Shown here: in pieces, positions 3,538 through 21,622 of the stretch
How the letters are laid out: every line of letters begins with the position of its first letter
How positions within the stretch are numbered: the stretch's first letter is position 1
DNA from: a virus
DNA: 27,553 nt
Virus record (IMG/VR): IMGVR_UViG_3300046782_000266
Span: 1 to 27,553 of that record
Direction: 5' to 3' (one strand)
Program-made: the position numbers and the translations under genes
Notes under the pieces: generated by a model
Databases searched by the model: none
The model's input: the letters and a program-made list of their open reading frames with translations, nothing else
Told to the model about the DNA's origin: nothing

Positions 3538-4281
3538 ATGATGCAGACAAGTGGCGATCAAAATATTTTTCGGACCTTCCAACCACCGCTCGGCGATGCC
3601 ACGCGCCGTGGTCTCGTTCTCGACTTCGACGCGCAAGTGTATGGCGTGATTGACAGTTGGGCGCGTGACCACGGCGCCACGTTCGCGGTGGTGTTGGACC
3701 AGGTGGCGACCGAGTTGGCCAGTGAGATCATCGCCGCGGCGCATCCGGCCGACACCGCGGCACAACCTTTGCGGATTTTAGATTTAGATTTAGATCGATT
3801 GATTGGGAGATCGATCCGGCCGGCGCGTGACGGTTGTGGAAAACCTTGTCCGAGTGCTTATCCGCAACCGGTGGACTCGCACGCGTCGGCCGTTCCTGGT
3901 GCCGGTCTCGGCGTTGGCAATAACGTCGAGGCACCGGCGCCGGCGCCAGACCGCACGCGCACCATTCTCGACTACTACGTGGCACTCACCGGCAACCGGT
4001 TGAAAGCGGCCGACTACACAAACGTTAAATTGGTTCTCGATCTACCGGACCTGGTGATTCAGTGCGGCATCCTGCACGCACTCAACTATGCCACCAGGCC
4101 GGTTGGTTCATTTGCCTATTGCGTGCGCGCAATGGAAAACTTTTTAGGTGCTCACCTCGACCTCGAAGCAACGTGCGCGACGTTGATCGACAAGTTGCTT
4201 CGCAAACGCGCCACCGGTCAGTTGGTGCTACCACTGGCCGGCGAGAAATTACTGATTGGAGAGTTTCAAAACGATGACTGA
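3538..4281 (+). CDS. Putative replication or DNA-binding protein with DnaD-like C-terminal region
   Basis: From ATG 3538 the protein has 247 residues. The N-terminal part (FRTFQPPLGDATRRGLVLDF, then DAQVYGVIDSWARDHG) is unrecognised and a variable Pro/Ala linker follows. The C-terminal part (ILDYYVALTGNRLKAADYTN, then LVIQCGILHALNYA and VGSFAYCVRAMENFLGA) resembles the helical DnaD/DnaB_2 domain pattern, in which a YYxxLTG helix is followed by a YxxxAIxNxL-like helix. That similarity is judged by eye only. The start is uncertain: GTG 3457, just before the stop of the previous gene, or ATG 3541 are also possible, and no good ribosome binding site precedes any of them. It overlaps the next gene by 8 nt. 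Confidence 0.55.
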   Translation: MMQTSGDQNIFRTFQPPLGDATRRGLVLDFDAQVYGVIDSWARDHGATFAVVLDQVATELASEIIAAAHPADTAAQPLRILDLDLDRLIGRSIRPARDGCGKPCPSAYPQPVDSHASAVPGAGLGVGNNVEAPAPAPDRTRTILDYYVALTGNRLKAADYTNVKLVLDLPDLVIQCGILHALNYATRPVGSFAYCVRAMENFLGAHLDLEATCATLIDKLLRKRATGQLVLPLAGEKLLIGEFQNDD

Positions 4282-6154
4282 GAACGATCCGCAAACGATC
4301 TGGAAACGCATCAAGGTGCCGAACGCGTTGGCCGCGGCCGGTTGGAAATTAATCCGGCGCGACACCTCGGCGCCGTTCGCACTGGTCAACGAATCATTGG
4401 ACCTCGACACCGGTGGCTTTCCCGATCCGACGGAAGCGATCTCGGCCGGTCGCGTGTTGATGGCCGAACGTGCGGCCGTGGCCGACGATGGTGGCGTTGG
4501 TGCCGGTGGCGCCGAGCTCGCCAGCGGCGACCGGCCGGCCGTGTTGCCGGTGAACCTGGTGGACGAAGGATGGCGTTTGCATCGCCAGCACCGCGACATC
4601 CGCGACGGCAAACGCGAGATGATTGGCCACCTGGCGCAACGCGGCCGCGGTCTCAACAAACTGCAAACGGCGATTCACGTCGATCCGGCCGACGCGGTGG
4701 CCGAGGCCATCACACTCGAACGCCAACGCCAGTTTGAGATCGAGGCACGCGAAACCGGCACCACCGATCTCGAACTGATGGCCGAGGCCGGCGACGACGT
4801 ATTGGACCAGGCCGATCTCGGCGACAACGTGGCCGGCGTCAACGTGAACGGCAACGGCAACGGCCACCACCAGGACTCGACGCCGGCCGAGATCATGCTG
4901 GCACTCGACCGCATCCGGATCGACGGTGGCACGCAACAGAGATCGCTATTCGATCCGGCCGTGCTCGAAGATTACGCCGAGGCCATGCATCGCCAGAACG
5001 ATGCCGACTTTCCCGCGGTCGATGTCTTTTTCGACGGTGCCGATTACTGGTTGGCCGATGGTTTCTATCGCGTGGCCGCACGCCGGCAATTGCACCTCGA
5101 CGACATCGCGGTACACGTGCGCGAAGGCACGCAACGCGACGCGGTTCTCTTTTCACTCGGCGCCAACGCGCACCACGGATTGCCACGCACGCCAGACGAC
5201 AAGCGGCGCGCGGTGCTGGTGATGTTGCGCGATCCGGAATGGGCTTCCTGGTCGGATGCAGTGATCGCCGACCGCGTGCGCGTGTCGTTGCCGTTTGTGC
5301 GCAAGTTGCGGCGCCAGGTCGAGGCCGAGACCAACGCGGCCACCTCGGCCGGCACCGACGCCAGCGACGCGCCAGGCGTCGAGAACGCGCCGGCAACACC
5401 GCAACCAACGCGGCGCCGTGGTCGCGATGGTCGCATCCAGGAAACGGCACGCATCGGCAAACGCGATACGGCCGGCGAGTTGACCGAGGCCGCACAACTC
5501 ACACTCGACGATCCGACGTTGCCGGATTCTGGCACCTCAAATGAGGTCGAAAAATCGGCAACGGTGCCACCGTTGGAAACACCAACACCAACAACGCCAC
5601 CGAGTGACGATCCACCGGCGAGTGAACCAGGTGAGGCACCGCGGCGATGTAGCAGATGCGCTAAGACACTCAGCAATGGCGACTTTCAAAACGTGGCCGG
5701 CGAGTGTTGGGATTGCGCCGGCAAAGGAATCTCCACGGTCCTCGGCGCGCATCGCACGTTTGCCGACCTCGGCACGCCGCACAAATTGAAAGTGAGTTTG
5801 TACTTTGTGCCGGCGCACGGTCGGAATGTGTACGTGTCGATCACCGGTGGTGGACTCACCACCGATCACAATCTCGACGTGACCGACATCGAGTTGCCGG
5901 CGCCGATCTTCGACCTGGTGAAACGGCACCTCGGCCGAGCACGGCGCGCCATGAATGCAGTGATGCGTGCGGCGCCGGCAAAAGCCCAAAGGAAACCGGC
6001 CGCGGTCGCCAAGTTGAAACGCGTGCCGACCACGAAGAAATCGAGCACTAAGAAAATCGCAAAGGCGCCAGGAAAAACTCGAGAACTTAAACCGGCAAAA
6101 CGTGGTGCAGTTGGACCAACGAAAACGCGCCGGCCACCGAGCAAAAAGAAATGA
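4274..6154 (+). CDS. ParB-like nuclease-domain protein with zinc ribbon and lysine-rich tail
   Basis: This 626-residue protein has an N-terminal helical part (RLHRQHRDIRDGKREMIGHL), then a ParB/Srx-like domain at about 209-345. Key stretches there are GTQQRSLFDPAVLEDYAEAM, YWLADGFYRVAARRQL (in the place of the family's D-G-x-H-R motif) and the helix-turn-helix-like WSDAVIADRVRVSLPFVRKL. Asn/Gly/Thr/Pro-rich linkers flank it. A CxxC...CxxC ribbon (RCSRC...CWDC) follows, and the last 60 residues are Lys/Pro/Ala-rich, like histone H1 tails. I chose ATG 4274, which overlaps the previous stop (ATGACTGA), over TTG 4256; GGAGAG lies upstream. A role in DNA binding is inferred. The tail contains a 21-bp segment shared exactly with 21232-21252. 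Confidence 0.8.
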   Translation: MTENDPQTIWKRIKVPNALAAAGWKLIRRDTSAPFALVNESLDLDTGGFPDPTEAISAGRVLMAERAAVADDGGVGAGGAELASGDRPAVLPVNLVDEGWRLHRQHRDIRDGKREMIGHLAQRGRGLNKLQTAIHVDPADAVAEAITLERQRQFEIEARETGTTDLELMAEAGDDVLDQADLGDNVAGVNVNGNGNGHHQDSTPAEIMLALDRIRIDGGTQQRSLFDPAVLEDYAEAMHRQNDADFPAVDVFFDGADYWLADGFYRVAARRQLHLDDIAVHVREGTQRDAVLFSLGANAHHGLPRTPDDKRRAVLVMLRDPEWASWSDAVIADRVRVSLPFVRKLRRQVEAETNAATSAGTDASDAPGVENAPATPQPTRRRGRDGRIQETARIGKRDTAGELTEAAQLTLDDPTLPDSGTSNEVEKSATVPPLETPTPTTPPSDDPPASEPGEAPRRCSRCAKTLSNGDFQNVAGECWDCAGKGISTVLGAHRTFADLGTPHKLKVSLYFVPAHGRNVYVSITGGGLTTDHNLDVTDIELPAPIFDLVKRHLGRARRAMNAVMRAAPAKAQRKPAAVAKLKRVPTTKKSSTKKIAKAPGKTRELKPAKRGAVGPTKTRRPPSKKK

Positions 6155-8823: not shown

Positions 8824-10101
8824 ATGAGCAACACCAACGGCAAAAAGAAATTCCGGATTCGCATTACCGGTTTCGAAACCAAACCGGCCGGCGCGTTTCA
8901 ATTCAATCCGTTGAACTGGCGCCGACACGGCGACGTGCAACGCGACGCACTGCGCACCATGCTCGGCGATGTTGGTTGGGTGCAGGGTGTGATCGAGAAC
9001 AAACGCACCGGCAATCTAATCGATGGCCACGCGCGCATCGAGGAAGCTTTACGCGACGATCCAAAACAGTTGGTGCCATACCTGGTGGTCGACCTCTCAC
9101 CGGCCGAGGAACGCGCGGTCCTGGCGACACTCGATCCAATCGGCGCACTGGCCGAGGTCGACCAGGCCGCACTCGATTTGCTGTACGACCAAACAATCCA
9201 GGCGATGCCAGATCTCGAACAGTTGCTTGACACGTTGCACTATGCCGGCGCCGGCGAGTTGACGGATATCCAGGACGCAGAACCGAACCTCGACCGTGCG
9301 GCCGCACTGCAAAAGAAATGGCGAGTGAAACGCGGCGAGTTGTTCGAGGTCGGCCAGCACCGCGTGATGTGCGGCGACGCGACCGCGGCGAAGGATGTGG
9401 ATCGGTTGTTGGACCAGGCACGGCCGGCACTCATGATCACCGATCCACCATACGGCGTCGACTATGACGCCACCTGGCGCGAACGATCCGGCAAAAACGA
9501 TTCCAGCACCATCACCACGATGGTCGGTCGCCGTGGTGAGAACCTTGCGGCCGTGCTGAACGACGACCGCATTGATTGGCGCGCCGCTTTCAAGTTGGCG
9601 CCGTGCTCGGTCTGTTATGTCTGGTATGCGGCCTGGTTCAGCACCGCGGTGCAGGATGCTTTGTCGGCCGCGGAATTTGTGATTCGCAATCAAATCGTTT
9701 GGCGCAAACCGAATTTTGTCATTAGTCGAGGTCATTACCATTGGCAACATGAGCCATGCTGGTACGCGGTGCGCAAAGGTCAACAGGCGCATTGGACCGG
9801 CGACCGAGCACAAAGCACGATTTGGGATATCGCCTCGATGGCACCGCTCGGCCGGTCACTAAATGAGAACGACCTGGCCACCGGACACAGCACACAAAAA
9901 CCGGTCGAGTGTATGGCGCGACCAATGCGCAACCACGCCGGCGACGTTTACGATCCGTTTGTTGGCAGTGGCACCACGATCATCGCGGCCGAACACCTCG
10001 GCCGGACCTGTTACGCAATGGAGATCGATCCGTCGGTGGTCGCCGTGGTCCTCGAACGGATGACCGTGGCCTTTCCGCAACTGACAATCAAGAAGCTATG
10101 A
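8824..10101 (+). CDS. ParB-like domain fused to N6/N4 DNA methyltransferase, copy 1
   Basis: Residues 1-135 form a ParB-like domain (FNPLNWRRHGDVQRDALRTM, LIDGHARIEEALRDD at about 65-79). Residues about 165-425 are a beta-type DNA methyltransferase that moves a methyl group from S-adenosylmethionine to adenine N6 or cytosine N4. Catalytic motif IV is DPPYGVDY (DPPY at 207-210) and the later cofactor motif I is DPFVGSGTT (377-385), followed by CYAMEIDP. The region between them (GRRGENLAAVLNDDRIDWRA and beyond) differs from copy 2, so its target site probably differs. Likely roles are self-protection from restriction or marking of DNA. It overlaps copy 2 by 4 bp (ATGA). Confidence 0.9.
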   Translation: MSNTNGKKKFRIRITGFETKPAGAFQFNPLNWRRHGDVQRDALRTMLGDVGWVQGVIENKRTGNLIDGHARIEEALRDDPKQLVPYLVVDLSPAEERAVLATLDPIGALAEVDQAALDLLYDQTIQAMPDLEQLLDTLHYAGAGELTDIQDAEPNLDRAAALQKKWRVKRGELFEVGQHRVMCGDATAAKDVDRLLDQARPALMITDPPYGVDYDATWRERSGKNDSSTITTMVGRRGENLAAVLNDDRIDWRAAFKLAPCSVCYVWYAAWFSTAVQDALSAAEFVIRNQIVWRKPNFVISRGHYHWQHEPCWYAVRKGQQAHWTGDRAQSTIWDIASMAPLGRSLNENDLATGHSTQKPVECMARPMRNHAGDVYDPFVGSGTTIIAAEHLGRTCYAMEIDPSVVAVVLERMTVAFPQLTIKKL

Positions 10102-11333
10102 CCACCAACGGCAAAAAGAAATTCCGGATTCGCATCACCGGATTTGAAACCAAACCGGCGTCGAGTTTCCAATTCAATCCGCTGAATTGGCGCCGGCACG
10201 GCGACGTGCAACGCGACGCATTGCGCACCATGCTCGGCGATGTCGGATGGGTGCAGGGTGTGATCGAGAACAAACGCACCGGCAATCTAATCGACGGCCA
10301 CGCACGCATCGAGGAAGCTTTACGCGACGATCCAAAACAGTTGGTGCCATACCTGGTGGTGGACCTTTCGCCGGCCGAGGAACGCGCGGTCCTGGCGACA
10401 CTCGATCCAATCGGCGCACTGGCCGAGGTCGACCAGGCCGCACTCGATCTGTTGTACGACCAAACCATCATCGCGATGCCAGGTCTCGAACAGTTGCTCG
10501 ACACGTTGCACTTTGGTGGCGCCGGCGAGTTGACCAATATCCAGGACGCAGAACCGGACCTCGACCACGCGGCCGAACTCACGCGCAAATGGAAAACGGC
10601 ACGCGGCCAGATGTGGACCGTCGGCCGGCACCGCTTGATGTGCGGCGACTCGACCAGCGATCTCGACGTCGGCCGGTTGTGCGGCCAGGACCGCGCGCAA
10701 TTGGTGTTCACCGATCCACCATACGGCGTCAATTACAACGGAGGTGTGACCACCAAACGCACCGGCCTGGTCGGCGACAAATCGCCATCGCTATACGCGC
10801 CGGCGTGTCGCGTGGCGTATGCGTTCAGCGACGACCAGGCGCCGATCTACCTTTGGCAAGGTGGCTTATTTGGAAGTGGTGACGTGGTGCTGAACGCACT
10901 CACCGCGGCCGGTTACAAAATCCGCAACGAGATCGTGTGGAATAAAAACCACGCACAATTCGGCGCGTTGTCCGCTCAGTACAAACAGAAACACGAACTT
11001 TGTTATTACTGCATCAAGACCAACCAGCACGCGCCGCGGTGGTATGGTCCAACCAACGAGATCACCGTGTGGAACGTAGATCGTGCGGTGGCCAACGAAT
11101 ATCATCCGACGCAAAAACCGGTCGAGTTGGCGCACCGCGCGATTCAAAACAGTTCGGCCAGTGGCGATGTGGTGCTCGATCTATTCCTCGGTTCCGGATC
11201 GACGATGATCGCCGCGGAAAATCTCAACCGTCGGTGTTACGCAATGGAGATCGATCCGGCGTATTGCGCCGTGGTCCTCGAACGAGTGGCCGCGGCATTC
11301 CCAAAACTAACGATCAAAAAAACTCGAGATTAA
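10098..11333 (+). CDS. ParB-like domain fused to N6/N4 DNA methyltransferase, copy 2
   Basis: This 411-residue paralog starts at ATG 10098 within the ATGA overlap. The N-terminal 130 residues are almost identical to copy 1, down to long runs of identical DNA. The methyltransferase half has motif IV DPPYGVNY (DPPY at 206-209) and motif I DLFLGSGST (361-369) followed by CYAMEIDPAYCAVVLER. The middle (GGVTTKRTGLVGDKSPSLYA and beyond) is unlike copy 1 and is expected to set a different recognition sequence. It ends IKKTRD, and the DNA there (AAAAACTCGAGA) matches part of a tail segment found at 6066-6086 and 21232-21252. Confidence 0.9.
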   Translation: MTTNGKKKFRIRITGFETKPASSFQFNPLNWRRHGDVQRDALRTMLGDVGWVQGVIENKRTGNLIDGHARIEEALRDDPKQLVPYLVVDLSPAEERAVLATLDPIGALAEVDQAALDLLYDQTIIAMPGLEQLLDTLHFGGAGELTNIQDAEPDLDHAAELTRKWKTARGQMWTVGRHRLMCGDSTSDLDVGRLCGQDRAQLVFTDPPYGVNYNGGVTTKRTGLVGDKSPSLYAPACRVAYAFSDDQAPIYLWQGGLFGSGDVVLNALTAAGYKIRNEIVWNKNHAQFGALSAQYKQKHELCYYCIKTNQHAPRWYGPTNEITVWNVDRAVANEYHPTQKPVELAHRAIQNSSASGDVVLDLFLGSGSTMIAAENLNRRCYAMEIDPAYCAVVLERVAAAFPKLTIKKTRD

Positions 11334-11337
11334 TTTT

Positions 11338-11925
11338 ATGGCCAACAACGTGAACGGTCGCGCGAAGAAGAAATTCAGGATTCGCATCACCGGATTTGAA
11401 ACCAAACCGGCGTCGAGTTTTCAATTCAATCCGTTGAACTGGCGCCGGCACGGCGACACGCAACGCGATGCACTGCGCACCATGCTCGGCGATGTTGGTT
11501 GGGTGCAGGGTGTGATCGAGAACAAACGCACCGGCAATCTAATCGACGGCCACGCGCGCATCGAGGAAGCTTTACGCGACGATCCAAAACAGTTGGTGCC
11601 ATACCTGGTGGTCGACCTCTCGCCGGCCGAGGAACGTGCGGTCCTGGCGACACTCGATCCAATCGGCGCACTGGCCGAGACCGATCCGGCCGCGGTCGAT
11701 CAACTCTACAAAGAGACCATCGCCGAGATGCCGGACCTCGACGCACTGTTACGCAATCTCCACTATGAGGCCGAGGCCGACGACACCGAGGAACCGGAAA
11801 CGAAAACGGTGGAATTCAAACGCACGTTCAAGATCGTGATTCCGTGCGCGAGTGCACGCGCACAAAAAAAGATCACCAAGTTACTCGACGACCAGGGCAT
11901 CGAATACCAGGCCAAGCAAACATAG
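11338..11925 (+). CDS. ParB-like protein, copy 3, without methyltransferase
   Basis: This 195-residue paralog carries the same ParB-like module (FNPLNWRRHGDTQRDALRTM, LIDGHARIEEALRDD) for about 125 residues. It then leaves the shared sequence (ETDPAAVDQLYKETIAEMPD). The methyltransferase is replaced by an acidic linker and a short domain, FKRTFKIVIPCASARAQKKI then LLDDQGIEYQAKQT, which by eye forms strand-helix-strand. Similar short tails occur on other phage ParB-like proteins. It starts 4 nt after copy 2 ends. It may bind the same DNA or partner through the shared module without methylating. Confidence 0.82.
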   Translation: MANNVNGRAKKKFRIRITGFETKPASSFQFNPLNWRRHGDTQRDALRTMLGDVGWVQGVIENKRTGNLIDGHARIEEALRDDPKQLVPYLVVDLSPAEERAVLATLDPIGALAETDPAAVDQLYKETIAEMPDLDALLRNLHYEAEADDTEEPETKTVEFKRTFKIVIPCASARAQKKITKLLDDQGIEYQAKQT

Positions 11926-17710: not shown

Positions 17711-19726
17711 ATGAAAACCGACCTTCAACAGTTACTCGGCAAACGCCAGGAACGAACCTTTGCAATCCTCGTTGAAGGGGACCACGCAAAGCGCGCCGCG
17801 GCGATCAACGAGGACGCGCGCACGGTCGAGATTGCGTTCGCCAGTGCGACACCAATCGAACGGTGGTATGGCACCGAGGTGTTGCAGTGCGATCCGGCCT
17901 CGGTGATGCTCGACCGCTTAAACAACGGTGGTGCTCTGCTACTCAACCACGACACCGACGCGCAAGTGGGTGTGATCGTGGCCGGCACCGCACGCGCCGA
18001 CGGTGATGGCGTGTGTCGCGCGACCGTCAAGTTCTCGCAACGCCAGGCCGGTCTCGACGAATTCCAGGATGTGAAAGACGGCATCCGCACGCAAATCTCG
18101 GTCGGCTATCTGGTCCACGAATATATCGTCAACGAGGACAGTGAAACCTATACGGCAACGCGGTGGGAACCGCTCGAAGTGTCAACCGTTTCAATCGCGG
18201 CCGACGTGGTTGGATCGGGAGTTGGGCGCACACTCGATGCGGGCCGTTCTGATGGACCACCAGCACCAACACCACCAATTGCTATGCGCGACAAAGGAGC
18301 GACACCAATGGAAGAAAATGAGAATCAGAACGGCAATCCGGCCGGCACCAACGGCCAGAATGGCAACCGTGCGGCCGAGCTCGGCGCCGGCACGCCAGCG
18401 GCAACGGCCGCGGCAACGGTGAGTGCGTTGGTCCTGGCCACCGAGATCATGGAGTTAGCACGCGTGATCGACGCACCAGGCGAAACGCTGGCGCAAGAAA
18501 CCGCGCGCGACGCCATCGCCAGCGGCAACACGTTGGCCGAATTTCGCCAGCGAGTTTTTGACAAGCGGCGCGAACGTGAGGCCGCGGCCAAAACACCGGT
18601 GGTGCAGCAAGGCAACGTGATCGAGTTGACCGAACGCGAGAAGAATCAATTCTCGGTGCGCAATGCCATCCTGGCCGACGTCAACATGCGGATGGGCCTC
18701 GGCAATCAAAACTGTTTTGAATTAGAAATCTCGGCCGAGATCGAGAAGCGACTAGGCGCGATTCATTCCGGATATCAACGCCACGGTGGCGTGTTGATTC
18801 CGACCGGCCAGGCACTTCGCGGTGGCCGTGAATTTCTCGAACGCCGCACGGCGATGCAGTTGCGCGCCGGTCTCGCCGCTAAGACCACCAACGCCGGCAA
18901 AGAATTGGTGTTCACCGAATACGGATCGTTCATCGAGATGCTACGCAATCGCGCGATGGTGATCGCACTCGGCGCCACCGTGTTGCCAGGTCTGCAAGGC
19001 AACGTAGGATTTCCACGCCAGATCGGCGCCGGCACGTTGACCTGGGGAGTTGAGAATCCTGGCACCGACGTGGCCGAATCAAATCTCACGTTGGACCAGG
19101 TGGTACTCTCGCCAAAAACCGCACAATCAACCACCAGCTATTCACGCCAGTTGTTAGCGCAATCGGCGATTGACGTCGACGGTCTGGTGATGGATGACCT
19201 GGCCGCAATCAACGCACTCGGCATCGACAAAGCGGCCATCGACGGCGTGGCGCCGGCACCGACCGGCATCTACACGGCCAGCGGTGTCAACTCGGTGGCG
19301 TTCACCGGCACGGTCACGTTCGCCAACGTGGTGCAAATGGAAACTGAGGTGGCCGCGGATAATGCCGACGTCGGCACGATGGCCTATTTGGCCACGCCGG
19401 CCGCACGTGGCAAAGCGAAGGTGACACCGGAATTAATCGGCACCGGATTCAGTCAACCGATCTGGCGTGATGGCACGGTCAATGGCTATCGCGCCGAGGT
19501 TACGAACCAGTTGCCGAAGAATCTCGGCGTCGGCACGAACGAGCACGGTTTAATTTTTGGCGTGTGGTCGCAACTGATGATCGGCGAGTGGGGCGTGTTG
19601 GAGATCATCACCGATCCGTATGCCAAGAAAAAGCAAGGCATGATCGAGTTGACGTCGTTCCTGTTGGCCGACGTGCAATTGCGGCACGGCGAATCGTTCT
19701 GCAAAGGCACCGGCCTAATTCCCTAA
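17711..19726 (+). CDS. HK97-type prohead protease fused to major capsid protein
   Basis: This 671-residue protein joins three parts. Residues 1-175 are an HK97-family (S78) protease, with catalytic candidates H80 (LLLNHD) and S130 (ISVGY) and the landmark RWEPLEVSTVSIAADVV. Residues 180-300 are a low-complexity Asn/Gly/Ala linker and a helical scaffold-like part. Residues 303-671 are an HK97-fold capsid protein (VENPGTDVAESNLTLDQVVL, SRQLLAQSAIDVDGLVMDDL, WGVLEIITDPYAKKKQGMIE). The protease is expected to cut itself and the scaffold away during maturation, probably near V303, because the second capsid gene begins with the equivalent residue. The start is ATG 17711, preceded by TTTTGGACCA. Confidence 0.93.
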   Translation: MKTDLQQLLGKRQERTFAILVEGDHAKRAAAINEDARTVEIAFASATPIERWYGTEVLQCDPASVMLDRLNNGGALLLNHDTDAQVGVIVAGTARADGDGVCRATVKFSQRQAGLDEFQDVKDGIRTQISVGYLVHEYIVNEDSETYTATRWEPLEVSTVSIAADVVGSGVGRTLDAGRSDGPPAPTPPIAMRDKGATPMEENENQNGNPAGTNGQNGNRAAELGAGTPAATAAATVSALVLATEIMELARVIDAPGETLAQETARDAIASGNTLAEFRQRVFDKRREREAAAKTPVVQQGNVIELTEREKNQFSVRNAILADVNMRMGLGNQNCFELEISAEIEKRLGAIHSGYQRHGGVLIPTGQALRGGREFLERRTAMQLRAGLAAKTTNAGKELVFTEYGSFIEMLRNRAMVIALGATVLPGLQGNVGFPRQIGAGTLTWGVENPGTDVAESNLTLDQVVLSPKTAQSTTSYSRQLLAQSAIDVDGLVMDDLAAINALGIDKAAIDGVAPAPTGIYTASGVNSVAFTGTVTFANVVQMETEVAADNADVGTMAYLATPAARGKAKVTPELIGTGFSQPIWRDGTVNGYRAEVTNQLPKNLGVGTNEHGLIFGVWSQLMIGEWGVLEIITDPYAKKKQGMIELTSFLLADVQLRHGESFCKGTGLIP

Positions 19727-19736
19727 CAATCTCTCG

Positions 19737-19778
19737 CGCCGGCCGCGTGTGTCTTTTCCTAAAAGCGCGCGGTCGGCG
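19737..19778 (+). other. Intergenic hairpin with conserved loop, degenerate copy 3
   Basis: CGCCGGCCGCG (19737-19747) pairs with CGCGGTCGGCG (19768-19778) over 11 bp with one G-T wobble. The 20-nt loop, TGTGTCTTTTCCTAAAAGCG, is a diverged form of the loop in copies 1 and 2 (CTT, CTAA and GCGCGC kept in order). It lies between the two capsid genes. Confidence 0.5.
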
Positions 19779-19813
19779 AGTTGGACCAGTTGAACCAGGG
19801 CAACGAAACATCC

Positions 19814-19819
19814 GGAGGG
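19814..19819 (+). promoter_or_regulatory. Ribosome binding site selecting GTG 19826
   Basis: GGAGGG is the best Shine-Dalgarno match in the capsid region and lies 6 nt before GTG 19826. It favours that start over TTG 19781, which lacks a comparable site. Confidence 0.65.
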
Positions 19820-19825
19820 CAACCG

Positions 19826-20911
19826 GTGATCGAACTCACGGCGCGCGAAACAAAACGCTATTCAATCCGCAATGCCATCATGGTCGACGTGGCGCGTCGG
19901 ATGGGTGATCGACGTGCTAACAGTTTCGAACTCGAAATCTCGGCACAACTCCAACGCGATCTCGGCGCCGGCTATGAACACCAGGGTGGCATCCTGGTGC
20001 CGACCAATATCACGTTGGACCATACACGCGCCGGCCTCGACACTAAGACACCGAGCAAAGGCCAGGAATTAACCTTCGATGAATTCGGCACGTTTATCGA
20101 TCTGTTGCGGCCGCAAAGTTGGGTGATCGAACTCGGCGCCACGGTGCTCAGCGGTTTGAAAGGTGACGTCGGATTTCCACGCGCCACGGCCGGCGCCGTG
20201 GTGACCTGGCAAGTTGAGAATCCTGGCACCGACGTGGCCGAATCCGATCTGGCACTCGATACGGTGTGGCTCACGCCACGCACCGCACAATCCACCACCA
20301 TGTTCTCGCGCCAGTTGTTAGCGCAATCCACGCCGTCGGTCGACAAGATCGTGGCGACGGACCTGGCCAAAGCACACGCCGCGGCACTCGACCGTGCGGC
20401 ACTGCAAGGCGTCGCGCCGGCGCCGGTCGGTCTCTACAACCAACTAATCCAGACCGCGGATTTTGGCGCCGCGTTCAACTACAGCGGCGCCGTGCATATG
20501 GAATTTTTGCTCAACCAGGCCAACGCCAACGGCAATCCGATGACACTCGCATACCTGGCCGATCCGCAATGGGCAATGGACTACAAGATCACGCCAATCG
20601 CGGCCACGATTGGGATGCCGGCCTGGTCCGAGGGGAAGGTGAACGGCATTCGCGCCGAGGTCTCGAAGAACATGCCGGCGCCAGGATGCATTCTCGGCAA
20701 CTGGCCGGAAGTGTTGATCGGCGATTGGGGTGTGTTGGAGATCATCACCGATCCGTATGCGAAGAAAAAGCAAGGCATGGTCGAGGTAACAAGCTTTGTG
20801 TTGACCGACGTGGAATTTCGGCATCTGCAATCGTTTGTGAAGGCCGGCAATTTCGGCACGTTGCCAGCGATGGCCGCGGCCGAGGCCAGTGCGACAAAGG
20901 GGAAAAAATAA
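19826..20911 (+). CDS. Second HK97-fold capsid protein, without protease or scaffold
   Basis: From GTG 19826 this protein has 361 residues. It matches the capsid part of the preceding fusion along its length: VIELTARETKRYSIRNAIMV versus VIELTEREKNQFSVRNAILA, VENPGTDVAESDLALDTVWL, SRQLLAQSTPSVDKIVATDL, and WGVLEIITDPYAKKKQGMVE. The first residue corresponds to V303 of the fusion, so this gene makes the mature-length form directly. It may build pentamers or a minor shell component, as gp24 does beside gp23 in T4, or be the main shell protein with the fusion as helper. Which one dominates cannot be seen from sequence. TTG 19781 is the alternative start (15 more residues). Confidence 0.9.
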   Translation: MIELTARETKRYSIRNAIMVDVARRMGDRRANSFELEISAQLQRDLGAGYEHQGGILVPTNITLDHTRAGLDTKTPSKGQELTFDEFGTFIDLLRPQSWVIELGATVLSGLKGDVGFPRATAGAVVTWQVENPGTDVAESDLALDTVWLTPRTAQSTTMFSRQLLAQSTPSVDKIVATDLAKAHAAALDRAALQGVAPAPVGLYNQLIQTADFGAAFNYSGAVHMEFLLNQANANGNPMTLAYLADPQWAMDYKITPIAATIGMPAWSEGKVNGIRAEVSKNMPAPGCILGNWPEVLIGDWGVLEIITDPYAKKKQGMVEVTSFVLTDVEFRHLQSFVKAGNFGTLPAMAAAEASATKGKK

Positions 20912-20913
20912 TC

Positions 20914-21192
20914 ATGCCACCGGTTGAGATGGTGAACGACAAAGGCGCACGGCGCACGTTGAAGTTTTTGCGCAACACCGCGTATGAGGGAACCGATTAC
21001 GGTCCTGACTATGAGACCGACACGACCGAGGTGGATTCACGCTGGTCGGCCGTGTTCCTGGCCAACGGTCGCGCGGTCGAGGTCGAGGCCGGCGCCAAAA
21101 AAGGACCGGCGAAGGGAATGGTCCAGGTGCGCGATCCGGAACCAGAACACCGCGATCCGCAATTGCCACTAAGCGGCGAAAAAAAAAACTAG
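20914..21192 (+). CDS. Small head-region protein, zero-frame product
   Basis: The 92-residue frame reads MPPVEMVNDKGARRTLKFLR, later VDSRWSAVFLANGRAVEVEA and PLSGEKKN. It starts 2 nt after the second capsid gene and precedes the head-tail connector, a usual place for a small head or neck protein. AAGGGG precedes the ATG. The frame ends inside a run of ten A (21179-21188) followed by CTAG. The heptamer AAAAAAC is in slip phase (A AAA AAC), and the -1 frame continues for another 38 codons, so a longer form is likely. I do not recognise a family. Confidence 0.65.
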   Translation: MPPVEMVNDKGARRTLKFLRNTAYEGTDYGPDYETDTTEVDSRWSAVFLANGRAVEVEAGAKKGPAKGMVQVRDPEPEHRDPQLPLSGEKKN

Positions 21193-21305
21193 CACCGACT
21201 AAGAAGCGGCCGGCGCCAGCACCAGCAAAAACGCCAGGAAAAACTCGAGAACGAAAACCGACGCCGAGCAAAAAAAAGGCACCGGCGCCAAAACGAAAGC
21301 GATGA
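21189..21305 (+). CDS. -1 frame extension of the small head protein (Lys/Pro-rich tail)
   Basis: After a -1 slip at 21183-21189 the frame reads LAPTKKRPAPAPAKTPGKTR, then ERKPTPSKKKAPAPKRKR, stopping at 21303-21305. It has no start codon of its own. Two facts argue for translation. Its TGA overlaps the ATG of the next gene as ATGA, as at many junctions here. It also contains a 21-bp segment identical to one in the ParB-like gene tail (6066-6086), read in the same codon phase (PGKTRE). The fused product would have 130 residues. An unnoticed one-base indel in the A-run would give the same long protein without slippage. Confidence 0.6.
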   Translation, partial: LAPTKKRPAPAPAKTPGKTRERKPTPSKKKAPAPKRKR

Positions 21306-21622
21306 TTGAAACGGCCGACGACCGGTTGGAGTTTTTTGAGATCGACGAAGGGTTTGCGGTCGAGTGTTCTTTGAATGGACCAGACGGTTTCACGGCCACC
21401 ATACCGGTGATCATGAACGCCGTGACCAATCCGGTGTCGTTGTACGAGACCGACGTGGAAGCGGCCGCGGCGCACTTCATTTGCCGACTTGAAGATTTGG
21501 CCGGCGTGGACTTGCGGCGCGTGAAGCAATACACGGCCAGCATCGACGGCGTGAGTTATCAACTGCAACGCGTGGCCGATGACCAGGACGGCAAAATTCC
21601 GACGGTGTATTTGAAAAAATAA
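21302..21622 (+). CDS. Head-tail connector or head completion protein candidate
   Basis: This 106-residue protein starts MIETADDRLEFFEIDEGFAV and is mostly beta: SLNGPDGFTATIPVIMNAVT, then SIDGVSYQLQRVADDQDGKI and TVYLKK. The size, the C-terminal SIDGVSYxLQRVxxDxxG pattern and the place between capsid and tail terminator fit a lambda FII-like stopper. The family is inferred from position and fold pattern. Its ATG overlaps the stop of the -1 frame extension, and it ends directly against the next gene. Confidence 0.65.
   Translation: MIETADDRLEFFEIDEGFAVECSLNGPDGFTATIPVIMNAVTNPVSLYETDVEAAAAHFICRLEDLAGVDLRRVKQYTASIDGVSYQLQRVADDQDGKIPTVYLKK

Follow-up and report, generated by a model that had tools for sequence, protein, structure and literature searches.

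Several phage structural proteins are made in a short and in a C-terminally extended form, the latter by a change of frame shortly before the zero frame ends (review: PMC5009743); gene 10 of T7/T3, the head protein of Lactobacillus phage A2 and the Listeria phages A118/A500/PSA are such cases. A conserved -1 frameshift is also found in the phage morphogenesis operon encoding the lambda tail assembly chaperone gpG-gpGT, and in Thermus thermophilus dnaX and insertion sequence (IS) elements transcriptional slippage at A9/T9 yields two products from one gene (PMC1088944). In lambda, the major capsid gene E and FII are separated by the gene for gpFI (PF14000), a protein described as bound to the gpE lattice and as working via non-specific DNA binding (PMC4856287). 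Here we describe a small head-module gene lying in the corresponding slot, upstream of an FII-like head-tail attachment gene, in the IMG/VR virus record IMGVR_UViG_3300046782_000266 (positions 1-27,553; this whole stretch of 27,553 nucleotides (nt) is called the window below). The gene ends in a run of ten A's with a stop codon directly behind, and comparison with relatives indicates that a conserved programmed -1 frameshift very likely extends its product by a basic tail.

With T7/T3 gene 10, A2 and A118/A500/PSA, this locus shares a structural protein predicted to exist in short and C-terminally extended forms. It differs from them in that the protein is a small accessory one of the head module, in that its arm is probably disordered and basic and not an immunoglobulin-like domain, and in that slippage would occur at an A9-A10 run immediately followed by the stop, no stimulatory structure being found. 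The conserved -1 frameshift in a morphogenesis operon recalls lambda gpG-gpGT, but the gene, the slot and the slip site are others and the extension is of 27-40 residues. As in T. thermophilus dnaX and the IS elements, slippage at a run of about nine A's would yield two products, whereas here the longer product requires the shift and the stop is placed directly behind the run. Despite the common slot, the window protein has no detectable sequence relation to gpFI, which is annotated as a single uninterrupted gene. The proteins of Jilinvirus and relatives that combine DUF7210 (PF23843) and Rho_N (PF07498) are alike in slot, in a similar short core and in a nucleic-acid-type or basic extension; however, the window clade fails the DUF7210 model and reaches its extension by frameshift only. 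If the frameshift is confirmed, an accessory head protein in the gpFI slot would join the phage genes known for programmed slippage. Standard gene calling annotates the short protein only and misses the basic tail in these phages.

In the window, the gene ends with the codons GGC GAA AAA AAA AAC TAG, the A10 run covering positions 21179-21188 and being followed by C at 21189. The initial annotation had placed the end of the zero frame at a TAG right behind the run, and this stop was confirmed at 21190-21192. Runs of eight or more A's are rare in the window, which holds only two. Relatives were found by scanning viral contigs with the small protein, with a profile of it and with the capsid protein encoded next to it, and the set comprised eight distinct sequences from separate metagenomes (the window, L003, L005 = L004 = L006, L007, L008, L009 = L010, L020 = L031 and L033 = L032). 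The zero-frame proteins of the relatives are 56-92% identical to that of the window, with a short form of 85-94 amino acids (aa). In all eight sequences the gene end aligns without gaps as NNA AAA AAA AA(C/G) plus an immediate stop. The run is A10 in four of them and A9 in the other four, the A9 loci keeping the phase through a non-A base upstream, and the codon preceding the two AAA codons always has A as its third base (GAA, CTA or ACA); in the window phage genes, 4.9% of the leucine codons are CTA and 13% of the threonine codons are ACA. The last codon before the stop is AAC in four sequences and AAG in four. The in-phase slip site A AAA AAC proposed at first is therefore present in the window, but the conserved unit is the longer NNA AAA AAA AA(C/G), with at least nine A's. 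The stop itself is TAG in two sequences, TGA in four and TAA in two, and three different stops at one codon imply that the placement of the stop is kept, not a particular stop codon. The other A8-A9 runs in the relatives' contigs were inspected as well, and none of them formed a comparable gene-end slip site.

Beyond the run, the -1 frame of the window reads from CTA (21189) through CGA as LAPTKKRPAPAPAKTPGKTRERKPTPSKKKAPAPKRKR and then meets TGA at 21303-21305, within an ATGA (21302-21305) where this stop overlaps the start of the next gene; the 38 open codons and the ATGA junction anticipated by the initial annotation were thereby confirmed. A closed -1 frame was looked for in the relatives. 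The frame is open in eight of eight sequences, over 27-40 codons, the site and the position of the adjacent stop are invariant, and the -1 stop falls within 4 nt of the next start each time, as compared with one of eight for the zero frame (within 8 nt) and none for the +1 frame. The product of the per-locus shuffle frequencies is 7e-9, a rough guide only as the loci share descent, and three loci with a fixed ATGA overlap add almost nothing to it. The -1 tails, computed for seven loci (all but L033), carry a net charge of +11 to +14 and consist of K, R, P and A for 57-79%. In the window, L005, L007 and L020, neither ATG, GTG nor TTG occurs in the -1 frame, upstream or inside, so that the frameshift is the sole route to the tail in these four loci. 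Taken together, the conservation in eight distinct sequences supports the earlier proposal that a longer form is made by slippage, whether ribosomal or of the polymerase.

Several observations weigh against this reading. The open -1 frame of the window is unremarkable when taken alone, since 54.7% of dinucleotide shuffles are also open because the stretch is poor in T; as one open sequence is weak evidence, significance rests on the conservation over the eight distinct sequences. The codon-usage likelihood does not separate the -1 frame from the +1 frame, and the neighbouring frames of this T-poor stretch are also rich in Arg and Lys, which makes the basic composition not specific to the -1 frame. 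The tail sequence drifts, composition and frame alone being conserved, and the synonymous and non-synonymous counts between L005 and L007 are too low for a decision. Every relative is a contig of an uncultured virus, all from one narrow group; searches of 50,697 phage records and of genome contigs from 84,980 species yielded none. Finally, no conserved downstream RNA structure was detected (RNAalifold gave no pairs, and shuffle z-scores ranged from -0.85 to +1.71), and inspection of the aligned sites revealed no conserved upstream Shine-Dalgarno (SD)-like element. Such stimulators often accompany programmed -1 frameshifting, although it does not require them.

Two peculiarities of the tails were recorded separately. 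The -1 tail contains another long A run, A8 at 21270-21277 of the window and A9 at L020:3646-3654; it could slip too and give a heterogeneous tail end. Besides, the tails of L003 and L008 have a 57-nt stretch in common, which agrees at 14/19 in the +1 frame (APYREWRIRQIREAAGA* / APFREWRLNQIRKGAGA*) vs 12/18 in the -1 frame and is perhaps the end fragment of another gene, or an opposite-slip product.

In the proposed mechanism, most readings would halt at the stop behind the A9-A10 run, yielding the form of 85-94 aa. Some would slip by -1, either by the addition of an A by RNA polymerase or by ribosomal slippage on A AAA AAA / A AAA AA(C/G), and would continue through a tail of 27-40 residues, rich in lysine, proline and alanine and ending exactly at the FII-like start. 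Both machines are possible at roughly equal likelihood, and the sequence does not separate them: with nine or more conserved A's, the run fits slippage by RNA polymerase no less well than slippage by the ribosome, and the invariant adjacent stop and phase suit the ribosome. It is quite conceivable that the RNA polymerase acts alone, A's being added or dropped at the run of 9-10 A's and the altered messages being read normally. A run of about nine or more A/T, as this would call for, is present as A9 or A10 in all eight loci, the base that brings the run to nine A's is retained even where this means using a rare CTA codon, and no ribosomal stimulator was found; the stop at the 3' edge of the run and the AA(C/G) end phase, both present in all eight, are nevertheless more directly explained by ribosomal slippage. 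A -1 slip by the ribosome alone, over the two heptamers A AAA AAA and A AAA AA(C/G) in tandem and aided by the adjacent stop, is a possible explanation too, as two overlapping in-phase X XXY YYZ heptamers and a stop directly 3' are found in every locus and -1 ribosomal frameshifting is known in phage structural genes (T3, A2, A118; PMC5009743). It needs, however, the extra conserved A's to serve as a second heptamer, and neither a conserved RNA structure nor an upstream SD-like element was seen. Moreover, four loci end the run with AAC, for which re-pairing in the -1 frame is poor in E. coli.

An unprogrammed origin, namely an indel or a sequencing or assembly error in the A run of one original gene of 120-132 aa, would agree with the error-prone nature of homopolymers and with the in-frame tails of outgroup proteins. 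This is highly improbable, as A9 and A10 relatives hold the same phase through a compensating base upstream of the run, three different stops occupy one codon in independent assemblies, and identical sequences were recovered from separate metagenomes (L004/L005/L006). Sequencing or assembly error was rejected on account of the phase held with both run lengths and with all three stops. Hardly any credit can be given to the tail being a separate short gene with its own start: GTG does open the -1 tail in L008 and L033, but the four loci mentioned above lack any of the three start codons in this frame, and an independent start was rejected for the window on that ground.

The proposed frameshift may also bear on the expression of the FII-like gene, a point that the initial annotation had overlooked. 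Whereas the small gene is preceded by a good SD sequence in all eight loci (-5.3 to -12.3 kcal/mol), the FII-like start is without a clear one in all eight (-0.1 to -5.0 kcal/mol, compared with a random median of -2.4 and a random best tenth of -5.7), the value for the window being -1.7 kcal/mol. This start lies 76-120 nt beyond the zero-frame stop, yet at the -1 stop. By the usual logic of translational coupling, only shifted ribosomes would give efficient initiation at such a start. In outgroups devoid of the slip site (L022, L023, L034), the zero-frame stop itself adjoins the next start. Because the FII-like gene lacks an SD sequence, frameshifting would on balance be expected to gate its translation, and slip efficiency would then determine how much small protein is made relative to the neck protein. 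Regulation of the FII-like gene as the main role, the tail merely keeping the path of the ribosome open, appears unlikely. Both the missing SD sequence and the location of the start at the -1 stop hold in eight of eight loci and the tail sequence drifts freely, as this role would have it, but outgroups repeatedly carry basic or nucleic-acid-type extensions on this protein with no frameshift involved, and the tails are strongly positive (+11 to +14 in seven loci), though other frames are basic too.

By analogy with the proposal for lambda gpFI, the long form may plausibly place a flexible basic arm by DNA during head assembly or packaging; contact of the tail with packaged DNA had been suggested initially. 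In cultured phages with capsid proteins about 33% identical, the protein in this slot has a DUF7210-like core that continues into Rho_N or into a short basic tail. The Rho_N extension was found in Jilinvirus Arya, ECO1230-10, KA2-1 and Persinger, with PPpW-3 slightly below the cut-off, and a short basic tail in frame in S-LBS1 and in the uncultured outgroups L022-L025 and L034. The DUF7210 model (PF23843) gave 0.0046 with outgroup L022 and 3.7e-06 with Jilinvirus, slightly below the cut-off. Judged from these sequences, a core with a nucleic-acid-type extension is a recurrent design in this slot, and the window group would place the extension behind a frameshift. We regard it as likely that the frameshift is accompanied by at least one of the two effects, the DNA-contacting arm or the gating of the FII-like gene. 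More tentatively, the single homopolymer slip site could form a dual switch, controlling both the fraction of a capsid-associated packaging factor that bears a DNA-binding arm and the amount of head-tail attachment protein; if so, one slip frequency would fix two stoichiometries in the phage head operon. If confirmed, the two forms, one bearing the putative DNA-binding arm and the other lacking it, would be a natural pair for studying how such factors help packaging, and the site would be a simple genetic device coupling an isoform ratio to the expression of the next neck gene. As a separate observation, the hypothetical protein after the capsid gene in L044, L047, L048 and L049 (Jilinvirus and relatives) consists of a DUF7210-like core and Rho_N; the endonuclease VII label on one of these records is not supported by domain content.

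The AlphaFold2 model of the small protein (mean predicted local distance difference test (pLDDT) 68) contains a beta-beta-beta-alpha-beta core at residues 13-56, with block means of 78-88 pLDDT over residues 11-60, and a low-confidence C-terminus which is probably disordered. Foldseek searches of BFVD with this model matched small phage proteins (best overall E=1.6e-03), one of them annotated DUF7210 (E=0.072). Among PDB entries, no fold match reached E <= 0.001, and 2LSM, the gpFI C-terminal domain, was absent among the PDB matches listed (50 of 92); no PDB homologue was found by sequence either. A Pfam scan of the window protein returned no match, including to PF14000 and DUF7210 (PF23843), and with an hhalign probability of 0.4% membership of the lambda gpFI family was rejected at the sequence level.

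A segment of the -1 frame identical in DNA and codon phase to the tail of a ParB-like protein had been taken initially as a further sign of the longer form. The identity stands over 21 nt (21232-21252 = 6066-6086, equal codon phase) within a 36-nt match at 89%, but it is lineage-specific and supports the coding phase only. The record of L003, the nearest relative, has a ParB homologue 87% identical and contains a 36-nt match to the segment at 86%, roughly where the ParB-like tail lies, whereas the L003 head-protein tail is without it. The window tail has therefore probably acquired the segment from the ParB tail, in phase, in its own lineage and not by ancestry. Its occurrence in the basic C-termini of two unrelated proteins (4256-6154 and 20914-21305) suggests that tail modules are exchanged within the phage.

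Table 1. Positions in the window of the small head-module gene, its proposed slip site and tail, and related features
Feature	Position	Strand	Evidence
Major capsid protein gene, just upstream of the small gene	19781..20911	+	PF05065 and phrog_617
Shine-Dalgarno-like CAAAGGGGA of the small head-module gene	20895..20903	+	duplex energy -7.8 kcal/mol vs 16S 3' end
Small head-module gene, zero frame, 92 aa, end KKN-TAG	20914..21192	+	flanked by major capsid gene and FII-like gene
Slip site G-A10-C, phase GAA AAA AAA AAC; overlapping heptamers A AAA AAA and A AAA AAC	21178..21189	+	gapless, invariant as NNA AAA AAA AA(C/G) in 8 distinct sequences
Zero-frame stop TAG directly 3' of the slip site	21190..21192	+	stop (TAG, TGA or TAA) at exactly that codon, 8/8
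-1 frame tail, 38 codons + TGA, net +14, 79% K/R/P/A, no own start codon upstream or inside	21189..21305	+	sequence
21-nt segment identical to and in phase with the ParB-like gene tail	21232..21252	+	= 6066-6086
Likely donor copy of the 21-nt segment, within the basic C-terminus encoded by the ParB-like gene (4256-6154)	6066..6086	+	sequence match
FII-like head-tail attachment gene; ATGA overlap of its start with the -1 frame stop; without Shine-Dalgarno	21302..21622	+	Phage_attach PF05354; phrog_82 head closure Hc1

The features listed in Table 1 belong, for the head module, to a lambda-like block comprising a gpA-type terminase, a lambda-family portal, a protease-capsid fusion, a second capsid gene, the small gene, the FII-like gene, a probable terminator with weak matches only, and the major tail protein. 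The FII-like gene matched Phage_attach PF05354 with E=5.9e-05 and 24.0 bits, slightly below the 26-bit cut-off. Upstream in the block, at 17711-20911, the protease-capsid fusion (671 aa) is adjoined by the stand-alone second major capsid gene (about 376 aa), phrog_617 being matched by both. Elsewhere in the window, at 8824-11925, a ParB-like N-terminal domain (KKKFRIRITGFETKPA...) is present in three tandem copies, two of which have DNA-methyltransferase-like C-termini and the third a short, different C-terminus.
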